Assembly (NCBI GenBank): GCA_017501465.1
Contig: JAFVWY010000018.1
Span: forward strand, 1 to 64,000
Direction of reading: 5' to 3'
Source: Bacilli bacterium
Lineage (GTDB): Bacteria > Bacillota_I > Bacilli_A > ML615J-28 > CAG-313
Length of the DNA stretch: 64,000 nucleotides
Below, in pieces: positions 41,952-48,669 of the stretch (its first letter is position 1; every line of letters begins with the position of its first letter). The notes beneath the pieces were generated by a model, which was not told the DNA's origin, ran no database searches, and worked only from the letters and a program-made list of their open reading frames with translations. Made by a program: the position numbers and the translations under genes.

Positions 41952-42803
41952 ATGAAAAAAATATTAGTAATAGGATTAGTTGGTGAATCGGTATTTTTAA
42001 AATGTGATCATTTTCATCAGCCTAATGAAACTATATCATGTGAAAAAATGTATACTGAAATTGGTGGAAAAGGATTTAATCAAGCATTAACTATTAACAC
42101 TTTGGGTGGTGATGTAGAATTTATTTCTTCAATTGGCAATGATTATTATGGTCAAATATGTGTAGATGAAACAAAGAAATTAGGATTAAAACATATATAT
42201 TTTAAAACTGAATCAAATACATCGTTTGCTACTATTTTAACGGATAAAAGCGGCGATAATCAAGTCAGTGTTTATAGGGGTAGTACAGTTAATAAAGAAC
42301 ACTTAAACTATATATATCAATGTATTGATAATACTGATTTGATTTTACTACAATTCGAGATGGATTTAGATGTTATAAAGGAAATTATTAGATATTCAAA
42401 AACTAAACAAAAATATGTAATATTAAATCCAGCTCCAGCTGTATGTATGTTTGAAGAAGTACTAATGTGTGATTTGATTATTCCAAATGAAAATGAAGTT
42501 GAAGTTTTATTTGGTAAAGAATATGTTGAAAAGATTCAAAATTCTAGTTTAAATGTTGTTGTTACTTTAGGAAGTAAAGGATCAATGATAATTAATAAAA
42601 AAGAAGTAATTAATATTCCTTGTGAAAAAGTTAATGTTATTGATACAACTGGTGCAGGAGATGTATTTTGTGGTAGCCTTACATATATGTTAAGTAAAGA
42701 TAAAGATCTTCACGAATCAGTTGTATATGCTAGTAAAATGGCTAGTGAAAGTGTAAAATATCATTGTGTTATACCTAGTATTTTACATCTTAAAAAACTC
42801 TAA
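41952..42803 (+). CDS. PfkB/ribokinase-family sugar kinase
   Basis: 283 residues, cytosolic. PfkB signature 1 is near GGKGFNQALTINTLGGDV (about 38-55) and signature 2 is DTTGAGDVFCGSL, with the catalytic Asp. NPAPAVCMFEEVL and PNENEVEVLFG are ribokinase-like, so ribose or a similar sugar is the best guess. Slightly shorter than most ribokinases. The next gene has its own strong promoter, so this one may be a separate unit. AGAGGTG precedes the ATG. No transporter is beside it that would show the substrate. Confidence 0.9.
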   Translation: MKKILVIGLVGESVFLKCDHFHQPNETISCEKMYTEIGGKGFNQALTINTLGGDVEFISSIGNDYYGQICVDETKKLGLKHIYFKTESNTSFATILTDKSGDNQVSVYRGSTVNKEHLNYIYQCIDNTDLILLQFEMDLDVIKEIIRYSKTKQKYVILNPAPAVCMFEEVLMCDLIIPNENEVEVLFGKEYVEKIQNSSLNVVVTLGSKGSMIINKKEVINIPCEKVNVIDTTGAGDVFCGSLTYMLSKDKDLHESVVYASKMASESVKYHCVIPSILHLKKL

Positions 42804-42890: not shown

Positions 42891-44723
42891 ATGATTTACA
42901 AGACAATCACTAATTATCTAGAAGCTTCAAAAGACTTCTTAGAAAATGAAAAACAATTCCATTTAGGTGTTATTCCAACAGAACAATCAAACCCTAAAAC
43001 TAGAAATTTAAGTGCAACTATTGCTAAAGATACTCAAGCTGGTGTTAAAACTATTTTATCAGCTGATGAAGATATCGCTAAAGTTGCTTTAGGACAATTT
43101 AAAACTCCTGAATTTGAAGCATTCGTTTCTGATATCAAACGTTGTATGGATGAAAGAAGAAAAGTTGTTTTCTCAAGTGTAGGTGCTAGTGGACGTATGG
43201 CTATCCAAATGGATGGTGCATGGAGAACTTTCTGGCAAGGCTTAGTTAATAAAATTCCTGCACATCGTTTTGAATTTTTAGAAATGGCAGAAGTAGTAAG
43301 CAGTTTTACTACAGGTGGTGATAGAGCTTTAGTTCGTTCAGTTGAAAACTTTGAAGACTATATGACTTTTGGTGCAAAACAAGTTGATGAAGCTGAAATG
43401 ACTCCTGGTGATGTATTAGTAGCATTATCTGAATGTGGTCTTTCTGCAAGTATTAATGGTTCTGCAGTTAGAGGTTACGAATTAGGTATTAAAACTTATT
43501 ATTTATTCTGTAATCCAGAAGAAATCTTAAGAAATCATTTGGATAGAGCACGTGCTGTTTTTGAATGCATCGATGAATATCAAGCTAATAAAGCTAAAGG
43601 TATCGACAATGGTAAATATATCGTTAAGATTCCTCTATTCGTTGGTAATATGGCTGTTTCTGGTTCTACAAGAATGCAAGTAACTACAGTTGAATTATTA
43701 GCTGCTGGTGCTGCATTAGAAGTTGCTGCAAACCGTTGGTTAGTAGAAAACTTAACTAAAGAAGAATTAGAAGTTATCGGTGGCGAAATGATTTCTTTAG
43801 AAGAATACGCTGCTGCATTTGAATCTTTAAATAAACAATTATCAAGTGGCGAAGCTTTAGCTGGTCTTGCAAAAGCTGTTGAATATGAAGTTGAAACTTA
43901 TAATGAAAAAGGTTTAATCACTTATATTACTCATGATTATCTTTTAGATATTATGACTGATACAACTGAACGTCAACCTACATTTACTCTTCCTCCATTC
44001 AAAAAATATGCTGAAGTAACTGATAATTTATCTTGGGCTTATATTAAAGATCCTCTATATCCTAGTTATGTTGCATGGCAACATGTATTCCGTCGTCCTA
44101 TCAAAGGTTTAGAATGGACAGTTGAAGATTATAAAGAAATGAAAGCTAGCCAAGACATTATTAATAATCCTCCTCTAGTATCAGGATTAGAAGTATTAGA
44201 TTATAATATTGGTTATGAAGATGATCCATCAAGATATTCTAGAAAAGTTTCTAATTTAGTTTTAATCGATGTTAATGGTTCTGCAACTCCAGAAGTTGTT
44301 GCTTGGTATAAGAAAGAATTAAGCAAGTATTCAGGCGGTGTTGTTATTAGATTTGGTCAAATTCCAGCTGAAAAGATTTCTGAAAATGAAATTAGAATTC
44401 CAATTGAATTACCAAGAACATGCACTGATATCTTATATCACTTATTAGTTAAAGTTGCATTTAACTGTTTAAGTACTGGTACAATGGCTAAGATGGGTCG
44501 TGTATTTGGTAACTGGATGGTACAAGTTTTACCAACTAATAAAAAATTAATTGATAGATCTACAAGAATTATTGCATCTCTTGCTCAAATTCCATATGAA
44601 CAAGCTAACCAAGAATTCTTCAAATCTTACTATAATAGAAAACCAGAAGATGAATATAAAGAATCTTATGTTGTTGAAACATTAAAACGTTTAGGATTTG
44701 ATCCAAATAAAGATATTGAATAA
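42891..44723 (+). CDS. GKRP/MurQ-like protein with two SIS domains
   Basis: 610 residues, far longer than MurQ (about 300). The first SIS domain (about 45-290) has FSSVGASGRMAIQMDGAW, equivalent to the MurQ sugar-phosphate loop, then VLVALSECGLSASINGSAV, SGSTRMQVTTVELLAAGAAL and a helical lid after it. A second, weaker SIS-like half (about 410-560; YSRKVSNLVLIDVNGSATPE, LPRTCTDILYHLLVKVAF) follows. The two-SIS layout is that of glucokinase regulatory protein. It probably binds or isomerises a phosphorylated sugar; which one is unknown. The codons are richer in C-ending forms, indicating strong expression. GGAGAAG precedes the start; a YwaF-type gene follows after 29 bases. Confidence 0.85.
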   Translation: MIYKTITNYLEASKDFLENEKQFHLGVIPTEQSNPKTRNLSATIAKDTQAGVKTILSADEDIAKVALGQFKTPEFEAFVSDIKRCMDERRKVVFSSVGASGRMAIQMDGAWRTFWQGLVNKIPAHRFEFLEMAEVVSSFTTGGDRALVRSVENFEDYMTFGAKQVDEAEMTPGDVLVALSECGLSASINGSAVRGYELGIKTYYLFCNPEEILRNHLDRARAVFECIDEYQANKAKGIDNGKYIVKIPLFVGNMAVSGSTRMQVTTVELLAAGAALEVAANRWLVENLTKEELEVIGGEMISLEEYAAAFESLNKQLSSGEALAGLAKAVEYEVETYNEKGLITYITHDYLLDIMTDTTERQPTFTLPPFKKYAEVTDNLSWAYIKDPLYPSYVAWQHVFRRPIKGLEWTVEDYKEMKASQDIINNPPLVSGLEVLDYNIGYEDDPSRYSRKVSNLVLIDVNGSATPEVVAWYKKELSKYSGGVVIRFGQIPAEKISENEIRIPIELPRTCTDILYHLLVKVAFNCLSTGTMAKMGRVFGNWMVQVLPTNKKLIDRSTRIIASLAQIPYEQANQEFFKSYYNRKPEDEYKESYVVETLKRLGFDPNKDIE

Positions 44724-44752: not shown

Positions 44753-45514
44753 ATGAAAGAGTTTTTTGAATATTTCTTTGGTAAAGGTGATACAATAGAG
44801 TTTCATCATTTCTCAAGTGCACATTGGTTACCAATTTTGATTGCACTTTGGGTAATTGAAATGATTTATAGAAACAGACATAAAATTGCAGAATTAAAAT
44901 GGGAAAAGACATTAAGAATGGGTATGGCATTCGCTTTAATTATTTGTGAAATGTCATATTATTGGCGTCTTGCTAATATGGCCTCATTAGGAGGTAATGC
45001 ACATGAACATTTACCAATCACTATTTGTGGATGGGCAATTATTTTCTGTAGTTTTATGTTATTAACAAAGAATCAAACATTATTTGATATTTCATATTTT
45101 TGGGTGTTCTCTGGAACAATTTTCGCATTACTATCTCCTGTAGTAATTGCCTATACTGGTCCAACTAGATTTAGATATTATCAATTCTGGGGCGAACATT
45201 TATTTGGTTATTTTGCAATTTTCTATATGATTTTTGTTCATAAGATGAGACCAAATTTCAAATCAATGATTAAATCATATGTTGGACTTGCAATTATGAC
45301 AGTTATCGCAACTTATGTTAATAATTTATTAGGTTCACCTGCAAACTATTTATTTATGGCTGAACCAGAACCAACTGCTTCTATATTAGATTATTTACCA
45401 AAAAATTACTTTTTAAGAATGTTATTAATGGGTGGAGTTATGACAATACTTTATCTACTTGCATACTTACCATGGTTCTTAAAAGATAGAAAAGCTAAAA
45501 AAACAATTAATTAA
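44753..45514 (+). CDS. YwaF/TIGR02206-type integral membrane protein
   Basis: 253 residues with six to seven membrane helices. The family pattern is present: FHHFSSAHWLPILIALW near the N-terminus, MSYYWRLANM, an ICGWAIIFCSFMLL helix, and YFAIFYMIFVHKMRP. The function of this family is unknown. It lies after the GKRP-like gene in the same transcript (CTAGGAGT is the ribosome site) and before a strong terminator. A shared role in sugar handling is only inference from the operon. Confidence 0.85.
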   Translation: MKEFFEYFFGKGDTIEFHHFSSAHWLPILIALWVIEMIYRNRHKIAELKWEKTLRMGMAFALIICEMSYYWRLANMASLGGNAHEHLPITICGWAIIFCSFMLLTKNQTLFDISYFWVFSGTIFALLSPVVIAYTGPTRFRYYQFWGEHLFGYFAIFYMIFVHKMRPNFKSMIKSYVGLAIMTVIATYVNNLLGSPANYLFMAEPEPTASILDYLPKNYFLRMLLMGGVMTILYLLAYLPWFLKDRKAKKTIN

Positions 45515-45610: not shown

Positions 45611-45639
45611 TTGATAAAATTGGTAAGGTATGATATAAT
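45611..45639 (+). promoter_or_regulatory. Strong promoter of the GroEL-like operon
   Basis: TTGATA, a 17-base spacer and TATAAT (45634-45639) with extended TGA. Confidence 0.85.
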
Positions 45640-45661
45640 AATTTAATAAAGGGGGAGAAAA

Positions 45662-45706
45662 ATGTTGTGGGATATTTTAATGAAAGATGGTATACATCTT
45701 GAATAA
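45662..45706 (+). CDS. Possible 14-residue leader peptide overlapping the GroEL-like gene
   Basis: The only strong ribosome site here (GGGGGAG, 45651-45657) sits before ATG 45662, which opens a 14-codon frame (MLWDILMKDGIHLE) ending in TAA at 45706. This overlaps the first 20 bases of the GroEL-like gene in another frame. The GroEL-like ATG (45687) has no good site of its own, so ribosomes ending the leader would restart there. An upstream-ORF coupling device is inference; expression of the peptide is unproven. Confidence 0.5.
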   Translation: MLWDILMKDGIHLE

Positions 45707-47135
45707 TCAAATAAATGTATTGAAAACTATTATTTCAGGAGTAGAGTTAGTTTATAACACCATTTTATATACATTTGGTCCAGGTGGAAAAAACGTATTA
45801 ATTAAAAGACCAAATAAGATTATTATTGCAGATGATGGAGTAAGTGTTGTAAATAATATAGTAACAAATGATGCTAATTTAAATATTGGGGTAGAACTTT
45901 GTAAGAGTATTTCTAACTCTATTAATAACTTATGTGGTGATGGAACTACTACTTCTATTCTTTTATTTTATTATTTTTTAAGAAATTCTTTTGAATTAAT
46001 TAATAATGGTGTGGATTCTAATGTATTAATTACAGAGTTAAAAGATTATCTTAAAAAAATGTTAACTTTAATCGAACAAGAAAAAGTAGATATTACAGTT
46101 GATTCTTTAGAAGAAATACTTTTATCTACTACAAATAATATAGAAATTATTGAAAATGTAAAAAAGGCATATCAACTAGTAGATACTAGTGGATATATTT
46201 TATTAAAAAGAAGTAATTCTATAGATTTTATTAAACATTATAAAGGGTATAACATATATATAAATAATACATTTGAAACAAAAGAATTAAATGATATAAA
46301 AGTGATAATAGTAAATGATGTAATTTCTAGCCACTTTATAATGTCTAATTTAAATGATGATAGATACCTTATTATTTGTCTAGGAATTAATAGTAGTATT
46401 CTTAATTATTATAAAGATTCTAATATAACTATTGTTTCTATTAAAGAATCTACTTTTGATAAAGAAACAATTTTTCAGGATTTAGAAACGCTATTAAATA
46501 TTTCTTATAGTAATAAAACTATTAATATTAGTAAAAATATTGATATTTTAATTGAAAATGATGTATTGATTCTAAAAGATTTAACTTCTCAAAAATTAAT
46601 TGATAAGTTAGCAAAACAAATGGATCAAACGCTTAGCTTATCAAAACTTTCAAAACTAAAAGAAAGATATGCAAAAATCACTAAAGGCTATGTTGTTATA
46701 TATGTATCTGGAACAACGGAAGAAGAATTAGAAAATAAAGTTCTAATATATGAAGATGCTGTAAAAGCTGGATATAATGCACTAAAATTTGGTGTGTGTT
46801 GTGGTGGAGGATATATATATTATTTACTTAGTAAAAAAGTTGATGGCACTTATTTTTATGTTATTAAAGAAAGCTTGCGATCTTTAATTATGACGCTAAT
46901 AAGAAATAGTGTTAGTACAGCTGAAAACATATATCAAAAATTATCTTTAGATACTTGGGTAGACTTAAGAACACTAGAAGTAATGAATATTAGTAAGATC
47001 TCTATCAAGGATTCTATATATACAATAAAAGAAATTTTAAAAACAGTTATAAATAATGTGTGTTTGTTATTAAACACTAAAATGATAATATTTAATGAAA
47101 ATATAAATAAACAAACTATTGATGATTTATTATAG
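45687..47135 (+). CDS. Divergent GroEL/Cpn60-like protein
   Basis: 482 residues (GroEL about 545), very divergent. Recognisable: TFGPGGKNV (29-37), ADDGVSV, CGDGTTTS with Asp85, YEDAVKAGYNALKFGV with Asp357 (the catalytic Asp398 of GroEL) and GGG at 373-375. Changed: the Lys51 position is Asp49, and the ATP-site Asp495 position seems to be Asn434 (VMNISKI). The apical domain (about 170-320) is poorly conserved, with little left of the substrate groove. From the ATG to the Gly-Pro of TFGP is 32 residues, exactly as in GroEL, supporting this start. No groES is beside it. It could be a paralogue with a new client or the only chaperonin of the genome. Confidence 0.85.
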   Translation: MVYILNNQINVLKTIISGVELVYNTILYTFGPGGKNVLIKRPNKIIIADDGVSVVNNIVTNDANLNIGVELCKSISNSINNLCGDGTTTSILLFYYFLRNSFELINNGVDSNVLITELKDYLKKMLTLIEQEKVDITVDSLEEILLSTTNNIEIIENVKKAYQLVDTSGYILLKRSNSIDFIKHYKGYNIYINNTFETKELNDIKVIIVNDVISSHFIMSNLNDDRYLIICLGINSSILNYYKDSNITIVSIKESTFDKETIFQDLETLLNISYSNKTINISKNIDILIENDVLILKDLTSQKLIDKLAKQMDQTLSLSKLSKLKERYAKITKGYVVIYVSGTTEEELENKVLIYEDAVKAGYNALKFGVCCGGGYIYYLLSKKVDGTYFYVIKESLRSLIMTLIRNSVSTAENIYQKLSLDTWVDLRTLEVMNISKISIKDSIYTIKEILKTVINNVCLLLNTKMIIFNENINKQTIDDLL

Positions 47136-47145
47136 GAGGTAACAT

Positions 47146-48669
47146 ATGAGCCATGATGAATTAACTAGTATGATAAAAGAACAATCCAAAGAAATAGAAA
47201 AAATTAAAAGTCAACAAAATAACGTTGACTTAAAAGAATTCTATTTAAATAAATATCAGGAAATGTATGAAGAGATTGTTAAAAATCGTATTGAAGAAAT
47301 AGATAATGAATTAAAAGAAATGGATAACGAAATTGTTAAACTTACTGATTCAGTATCTAGAATTGAAGAAGATATTCATACTAATGAATTAACTAAACAA
47401 AAAATTGAAATAGTTGAACAAAAGATTTATGAATGTTACGCACAAATGGAAGAAGAACGCTTTAAAAGTGAAACGGTTTGTGATAAATTACAAAGAGATA
47501 CAATTGTACTTTGTAATCAACATCATATGCATGTAGAGTCTTGGTTTACAACTTTAAATAATTATTATAATGGTTTAATCACAAATGGCGAATTATTAGA
47601 TCAAATTAGTCAATTAACTAATTTAATGAATAATGAATGTTACGAATTATCTTTAAAAATTAAGAATAATGAAATCGAAAACAGAAGATTAGAAAAAATT
47701 TTAGATGATAAGATTTTCGAGATTAGAAAACAACTAGATAGCCTAATTAAAGAAAAAGAAAGATATGAACAATATCTTTATGAAGTGTCTACAGAACAAA
47801 AGATGGCTTTAAAAAATGACTTACAAATCAGACTAGAACATAAAGTTACTTATTTACAAGAAATAAAGGCTTCTTTTATTGAAATGAGTTCTAAACAATT
47901 GAAAGAATTTACTGATTTATATAATAAAAATTATTTAATCAGTAAACCATCAATTGAACAAGTTCAAGAATATGATCAGTTATTTAGTAAGTTTAAGTCA
48001 CGTTTAATTACTATTGATACTAAATCTAATTTAGATTATCAAAGAAAGAAAAGATTATCTTTTTTACAACAAGAAAAGGCTCGCCTTGATGAAATTAAAT
48101 CTAAAAAAGATGGAATCGATGAAAAGGTTAAAAGATTTAAAGAAGCAAGTGTTGTTATAAAACAAACGATTGAAGAACTTGATTTACATGTAGAAAATAT
48201 TAAAAAAGAGTTAACTCAATATCAGAATAAGAATTTTATTCTATATAACGATTATTATTTAAAAGATATTAAAGAATGTAAAAAAGCAATAGAACATCAA
48301 CAACAATTAATTACATCTTTAAAAGAAGAAAGAACTTATAGATTGTTTGATCCAGAAGTTGAAAAGATTAAAGAATTAGATAATGAAATTCATGTAGAAG
48401 AATTAAATTTAAATGATCTTATCAAAAGACTAGATAATGTTGAAGAAAACTATGCTGCATTCTTAAAAGAAAATGATAATAATCAAATAAAAGTACTATT
48501 AGAAGAAGGCCAGTATTTTGAAGAAAAAATTCCTCAATTAAAAATTATGCATGAAAAATTAAATTTAAAGATTGATACTTTTGAAAATGAATCTTTATCT
48601 TTATCAAAAGAACTTGTTGATTATCAAGATATAGTAATGCAGATAGAGGAATTAAAATATGAAGATTAG
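47146..48669 (+). CDS. Long coiled-coil protein of unknown function
   Basis: 507 residues, almost all charged heptad-type helix (Glu, Lys, Leu, Ile). Strong coiled-coil stretches run from about 1 to 100, 165 to 250 and 290 to 505; breaks occur around 120-150 (CNQHHMHVESWFTTLNNYYN) and 260-275. No signal, membrane helix or ATPase motif, so it is not a complete SMC. AGGAGGT precedes the ATG 10 bases after the GroEL-like stop, and the gene overlaps the B3/4 gene by 11 bases. A scaffold role with these two neighbours is inference. Confidence 0.88.
   Translation: MSHDELTSMIKEQSKEIEKIKSQQNNVDLKEFYLNKYQEMYEEIVKNRIEEIDNELKEMDNEIVKLTDSVSRIEEDIHTNELTKQKIEIVEQKIYECYAQMEEERFKSETVCDKLQRDTIVLCNQHHMHVESWFTTLNNYYNGLITNGELLDQISQLTNLMNNECYELSLKIKNNEIENRRLEKILDDKIFEIRKQLDSLIKEKERYEQYLYEVSTEQKMALKNDLQIRLEHKVTYLQEIKASFIEMSSKQLKEFTDLYNKNYLISKPSIEQVQEYDQLFSKFKSRLITIDTKSNLDYQRKKRLSFLQQEKARLDEIKSKKDGIDEKVKRFKEASVVIKQTIEELDLHVENIKKELTQYQNKNFILYNDYYLKDIKECKKAIEHQQQLITSLKEERTYRLFDPEVEKIKELDNEIHVEELNLNDLIKRLDNVEENYAAFLKENDNNQIKVLLEEGQYFEEKIPQLKIMHEKLNLKIDTFENESLSLSKELVDYQDIVMQIEELKYED

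Follow-up and report, generated by a model that had tools for sequence, protein, structure and literature searches.

Alignments and a structural model indicate that what sets apart the Cpn60 encoded in the window, as we call the whole stretch of DNA that was analyzed (64,000 nucleotides of contig JAFVWY010000018.1), is a dismantled apical surface, the one that would bind GroES and client proteins, in a protein whose ATPase site has been kept. We consider it probable that the gene is a vertically inherited Group I Cpn60 of its family, residing at the ancestral locus, which would now work independently of GroES as an ATP-driven holder or remodeller of few clients.

The Window Gene Is a Highly Diverged Group I Cpn60

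The gene is real and encodes a Group I Cpn60 that has diverged strongly. Its ORF, at 45687-47135 (+), forms an unbroken frame of 482 aa, the sole Pfam match of which is Cpn60_TCP1 (E=1.1e-20, 74.3 bits against a curated cut-off of 34.3), and solved GroEL/Hsp60 chains match it with E values down to 6.6e-23, Group II models and chains giving far lower sequence scores. The NCBIfam GroEL equivalog and subfamily models score 129 bits at best and do not reach their cut-offs of 352 or more, which, with the apical change and the loss of groES described below, agrees with the original prediction of a highly divergent, specialised Cpn60. Compared with E. coli GroEL, the protein is ~19% identical and has no GGM tail; its length falls about 40-66 aa short of that of its relatives and of E. 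coli GroEL, consistent with the 60 residues that had been claimed. The start codon is probably the TTG rather than the upstream ATG, because the matching TTG start of the sister species G001 aligns gap-free with the starts of relatives (MNNNILYDEQ vs. MSNQILFSKQ). Across the whole genome (1.56 Mb, 96.6% complete), a family search found no second Cpn60, and an ordinary groEL or groES was not found elsewhere in it either. Within the family the homologues are not broken, each of the 15 genomes having one that is free of internal stops. Coordinates of the features discussed here are given in Table 1.

Table 1. Features of the groEL locus in the window (positions of the whole stretch; residue numbers follow E. 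coli GroEL unless stated)
Feature	Position	Strand	Basis or remark
Sigma-A-type promoter TTGATA-17-TATAAT, counterpart of the family's groES promoter	45611..45639	+	Comparison with relatives
Strong Shine-Dalgarno of the leader ORF, AGGGGGAG	45650..45657	+	Corresponding site in G001 reads AAGGGGGGAA
14-codon leader ORF (MLWDILMKDGIHLE, then stop) in the groES slot	45662..45706	+	Stop overlaps the groEL start (TTGAATAA)
groEL (cpn60)	45699..47135	+	478 codons if read from TTG, the probable start; longer ORF from ATG 45687
Codon matching Lys51; encodes Asp, where most of the class has Asn	45831..45833	+	Alignment
GDGTTT phosphate loop (86-91)	45936..45953	+	Alignments
Deletion point of the apical segment around RGYLSPYF (197-204)	46248..46253	+	Alignments
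Apical helix H remnant, 3 residues in the model	46341..46349	+	AlphaFold model
Apical helix I remnant, 6 residues in the model	46392..46409	+	AlphaFold model
Catalytic Asp398 equivalent	46755..46757	+	Alignments
GGG (414-416)	46803..46811	+	Alignment
Asp495 equivalent, D442 of the window protein (...ISIKDS...)	47010..47012	+	Invariant column, 19-sequence alignment
Coiled-coil protein, adjoins groEL in most of the family	47146..48669	+	With B3/4, glnS and pcrA marks the ancestral locus

In a maximum-likelihood tree of Group I sequences, without Group II rows (C20 mixture), the two GroELs of the window's genus, g1, nest among those of their own family with support of 100/100, their stem measuring 6.5 changes per site. 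Moreover, family members share the gene order groEL-B3/4-glnS-pcrA, most of them with the coiled-coil gene directly after groEL. Synteny and tree placement together thus identify the gene as the family's own GroEL and not an import. Acquisition from a phage or from another lineage with GroES-free chaperonins would be in keeping with a quick tree, containing other long branches, that pulls the gene toward other diverged GroELs, but the syntenic locus and the careful tree speak against such an origin and the viral search returned only matches of 23-24% identity, so that this reading is barely credible. The grouping in that first tree with the GroELs of family f11, of G030 and with the second copy of G020 (see below) was rejected as probable long-branch attraction. 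When genome and viral collections were searched for proteins closer to the window Cpn60, nothing of use came up. As to the neighboring genes, a TMEM164/TP0381-family membrane acyltransferase gene immediately precedes groEL in both g1 genomes (44753-45514, +, in the window; 57% identical between them) and is not found at this place in the other family members. A large protein with a SIS domain, related to the glucokinase regulatory protein (42891-44723, +), is encoded next to a pfkB-type sugar kinase (41952-42803).

The ATP Site Is the Surviving Part

To check individual residues, we aligned the window Cpn60 with E. coli GroEL and 35 relatives. Thr30, Gly32, Pro33, Asp52, Asp87-Thr91, Asp398, GGG 414-416 and Asp495 are all kept. 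The GDGTTT loop, the catalytic Asp and GGG are thus where they had been predicted to be, whereas the accompanying claim of changed ATP-site residues, based on the apparent lack of the Lys51 and Asp495 equivalents, did not hold, since every key catalytic residue is in place. The Asp495 equivalent, the absence of which would have spoken for a lost ATPase, is present. Lys51 is indeed replaced, but because nearly every GroEL of the class has Asn at this position, the replacement is uninformative and no sign of a damaged ATP site. Identity to E. coli amounts to 15/21 at ATP-site positions against 92/548 overall (hypergeometric p ~2e-8), and to 1/12 at the apical positions that bind GroES and clients. 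What is unusual about the protein thus does not lie in its ATP site, and it is predicted still to hydrolyze ATP and to oligomerize.

The Apical GroES- and Client-Binding Surface Appears Dismantled

In E. coli GroEL, segment 197-204 sits under the binding groove. Helices H and I with segment 199-203 form the surface for unfolded clients, and the mobile loop of GroES binds between the two helices (PMC1885994). The original prediction that most apical features are lost is borne out by the alignment, in which segment 197-204 is gone from both g1 genomes (G000, the window genome, and G001) and kept in the 13 other family members. We modelled the window Cpn60 as a monomer with AlphaFold2 (pLDDT 85, pTM 0.77). 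In this model helices H and I are reduced to short remnants, compared with 14 and 12 residues in a family-f11 GroEL modelled as a control with the same pipeline, so that the client/GroES groove of the GroEL-GroES system (199-204 with helices H and I) appears not to be there. The whole chain nevertheless matches GroEL/Hsp60 in Foldseek, the best matches being GroES-bound conformations (TM 0.76-0.80). Inter-ring residues, as seen in the alignment (monomers were modelled), vary across the whole family.

A 14-Codon ORF Occupies the groES Slot

Pfam Cpn10 has no match in the genome (1.56 Mb, 96.6% complete). Because the GroES proteins of the family are short and partly below Pfam detection, we built a lineage-specific profile from 11 of them. 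This profile recovers the groES genes missed by Pfam in the controls G004, G007, G010 and G012, and finds nothing in G000, in G001 (a genome only 70% complete) or in G006; a groES was found neither elsewhere in the window genome nor just upstream of groEL. The GroES proteins of family f1 measure only ~78-84 aa (e.g., L025:3059-3310, -), and their short mobile loop reads IYM, IIM or similar instead of IVL.

In relatives, the promoter is followed by groES and then by groEL. A promoter similar to that of the window is present in most GroES-bearing relatives, where TATAAT precedes the groES ATG by 23-27 nt (38 nt in G004); in the window TATAAT stands 22 nt before the ATG of the 14-codon leader ORF. 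In G001 the leader also has 14 codons, encoding a different peptide (MVFIQLKEMGIIFE, then stop), with the same overlap with the groEL start, and in the GroES-bearing genus g3 the groEL ATG and the stop of groES overlap in the register seen in the window. Considered as a possible GroES fragment, the leader bears no convincing resemblance to GroES in its residues, and the claim that it occupies the groES slot is one of position, promoter and overlap alone. This arrangement suggests that the leader ORF probably acts as a translational coupler, feeding ribosomes into groEL. A 14-codon ORF (MEKNEKISQRLISH, then stop), of the same length as the g1 leader, lies behind the promoter in G006 as well (L066:5000-5200). 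CIRCE/HrcA heat-shock control was rejected, as no CIRCE-like site rises above shuffled background at the groE loci of family f1 or in three f2 genomes; CIRCE is present at groESL in class outgroups.

These results bear on the possibility that a GroES too diverged to be detected, or encoded in the unassembled part of the genome (3.4% incomplete), still caps the chaperonin. The shortness of the family's GroES, below Pfam detection in several genomes, would favor it, but the family profile finds those very cases and nothing in G000, G001 and G006, the groES slot holds the 14-codon ORF, and the groove to which the mobile loop would bind appears deleted, which makes a hidden GroES very unlikely.

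Intermediate Stages and Parallel Cases Among Relatives

G006 has lost groES and kept the apical binding residues, and thus apparently represents an intermediate between loss of the lid and loss of the groove. In a tree of three linked genes, G006 pairs with G005 (0.97), which has groES, and g1 is placed near G004, which has it too. Because the two are found beside different groES-bearers, groES was probably lost twice, in g1 and in G006, as judged from these sequences. In the GroEL tree G006 and g1 join, as long branches, and a single loss for both would retain a small probability.

In family f11, of the same class, 13 of 58 sampled genomes have a Cpn60 match, and one of these matches (in G437) is a stop-containing remnant. 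In the 11 genomes inspected in detail, groEL comes without a convincing groES; in two f11 genomes the GroES profile scores only marginally (E 0.02 and 0.22), within ORFs of ~300 aa. The groove residues are replaced in this family: Glu238 by Asn in 11/11, Leu234 mostly by Ser, Gly or a polar residue, and Val264 mostly by Ser (polar or small). Most catalytic residues stay, Gly415 being variable. By its sequences, f11 thus appears as a separate, parallel case of a groEL without groES. Its groEL usually lies behind radical-SAM-like (SPL-like, named from motifs) and DUF4130 genes, in a repeated operon (L171-L185). Across the class, 210 of 394 sampled genomes have no Cpn60 match. The f11 pattern and these class-wide absences therefore place the window gene on a route that elsewhere in the class ends in loss of the chaperonin.

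We put forward, tentatively and with more doubt than confidence, a broader reading, according to which genus g1 and f11 would represent at least two origins, in gut Bacilli, of a class of cellular chaperonins, in which the sole Cpn60 is a lid-less ATP-driven machine with a groove altered or removed after the loss of groES, the groES slot of g1 having become a short translational leader. Other diverged GroELs were also seen. G030 (family f2) encodes a 517-aa GroEL (L065:5806-7359, -) in which segment 197-204 is largely replaced, no GroES was found for it, and it is a possible further GroES-less case. G020, of the same order, has a normal groESL and, elsewhere, a second groEL-like gene of 403 aa between tsaD and a CvpA-like gene (L068:2599-3810, +), with a phosphate loop reading GDGSKQ and Asp398 changed to Asn, which by these changes is probably a dead or repurposed ATPase. 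A diverged GroEL with a GroES-like gene is found in G017 (L064:5350-6900, +), in an apparent prophage region.

groEL Evolves Fast but Under Constraint

The sample of genus g1 consists of two species with draft genomes, G000 (96.6% complete) and G001 (70% complete). Between them groEL is 39% identical, compared with 57-91% for eleven neighboring genes, and its dN/dS is ~0.7 (dS ~0.8), compared with ~0.05-0.08 for groEL pairs of similar dS in two sister genera. In a neutral simulation of such an AT-rich gene, more than 20 stops arose on average on the shortest branch tried, whereas none is observed. Since both frames are full length against this expectation, groEL evolution is fast but constrained.

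The main rival to a working holder or remodeller is late decay, in which the gene would have retained little or no function after groES loss and its ORF would simply not yet be broken. The high dN/dS is what decay could produce, and the class genomes that lack a Cpn60 match, including most of f11, as well as the G437 remnant, show where such a process could lead. However, two species separated by this much synonymous divergence both keep a full-length frame that neutral change would have interrupted many times, the residues kept are selectively those of the ATP site, and promoter, Shine-Dalgarno and start overlap are maintained in both g1 species. We thus consider late decay unlikely, while taking it seriously.

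Loss of the client/GroES surface with retention of the ATPase site would also fit a protein repurposed for a job other than folding (as a scaffold, an adhesin or a regulatory ATPase), one using the ring and not the client groove, and GroEL is widely reported to moonlight (PMC13245659). Given that we found neither a new domain in the protein nor a new downstream operon partner of groEL, its downstream neighbors being the family's usual genes, we regard such repurposing as distinctly unlikely.

Discussion

The reading that we favor, an inherited Cpn60 turned GroES-independent holder or remodeller, could have arisen in four steps. First, groES would have shortened and diverged across the whole family. 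It would then have been lost in genus g1, leaving behind the promoter, the ribosome-binding site and the 14-codon ORF overlapping the groEL start. The apical domain, freed from GroES, would in turn have shed segment 197-204 together with the greater part of helices H and I, while the equatorial and intermediate ATPase was retained. By analogy with what has been proposed for phage EL, the product may be an oligomer that uses ATP to bind a few clients and let them go again, with no encapsulation, and general folding would fall to DnaK and trigger factor, both of which are present in the genome. The disappearance of the client groove counts against this reading.

In sequence and tree placement, the window Cpn60 shares with the E. 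coli GroEL-GroES system the three-domain Cpn60 fold, GDGTTT, Asp52, Asp398, GGG and Asp495, and differs from it by having no GroES, by the deletion of 197-204 and by its reduced helices H and I. Group II and III chaperonins work without GroES and carry a built-in lid protrusion. The window protein has, in the alignment, apical deletions and no lid insertion, and does not belong with them. The phage EL chaperonin is an ATPase that prevents aggregation with neither GroES nor encapsulation (PMC7185714), and those of phages OBP and AR9 need no co-chaperonin (PMC9598537). With these the window protein, known here from its sequence, would share a Group-I-like ATPase working without co-chaperonin, but they are phage-borne and of another lineage, whereas the window gene is the only chaperonin gene of its cell and descends in place from a GroES user. 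Chlamydial GroEL2 and GroEL3 (NF038370, NF038369) are fast-evolving paralogues that differ in the GroES-binding and ATP regions (PMC1892554), comparable in their rate of evolution and changed GroES-binding region; unlike the window genome, which has no second copy, Chlamydiae keep a normal GroEL1-GroES as well. Mollicutes offer reduced-genome relatives, in the wider group, that are losing GroE (PMC13245659, PMC5810989). There, GroEL and GroES are described as present or absent together (PMC5810989), and groEL pseudogenes are known, e.g., in 'Ca. Phytoplasma pruni' (PMC13245659), whereas the window GroEL outlives GroES as an intact gene.

In the literature searched (open-licence papers), we found no report of cells that have a single, intact GroEL and lack GroES. 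A 2017 survey of 4,861 genomes stated that species with a single groEL always have groES upstream (PMC5406781), and a sole GroEL outlasting GroES contrasts with this statement as well as with the pairwise keeping or loss of the two genes (PMC5810989). With the relatives, the stages can be seen next to each other, from a full GroEL paired with a short GroES, through a lone GroEL that still has its groove and one that has lost it, to no chaperonin at all, which makes testable both the function of a bacterial chaperonin without encapsulation and the way in which cells shed GroE. The window gene may thus show how the sole chaperonin of a cell can run lid-less.
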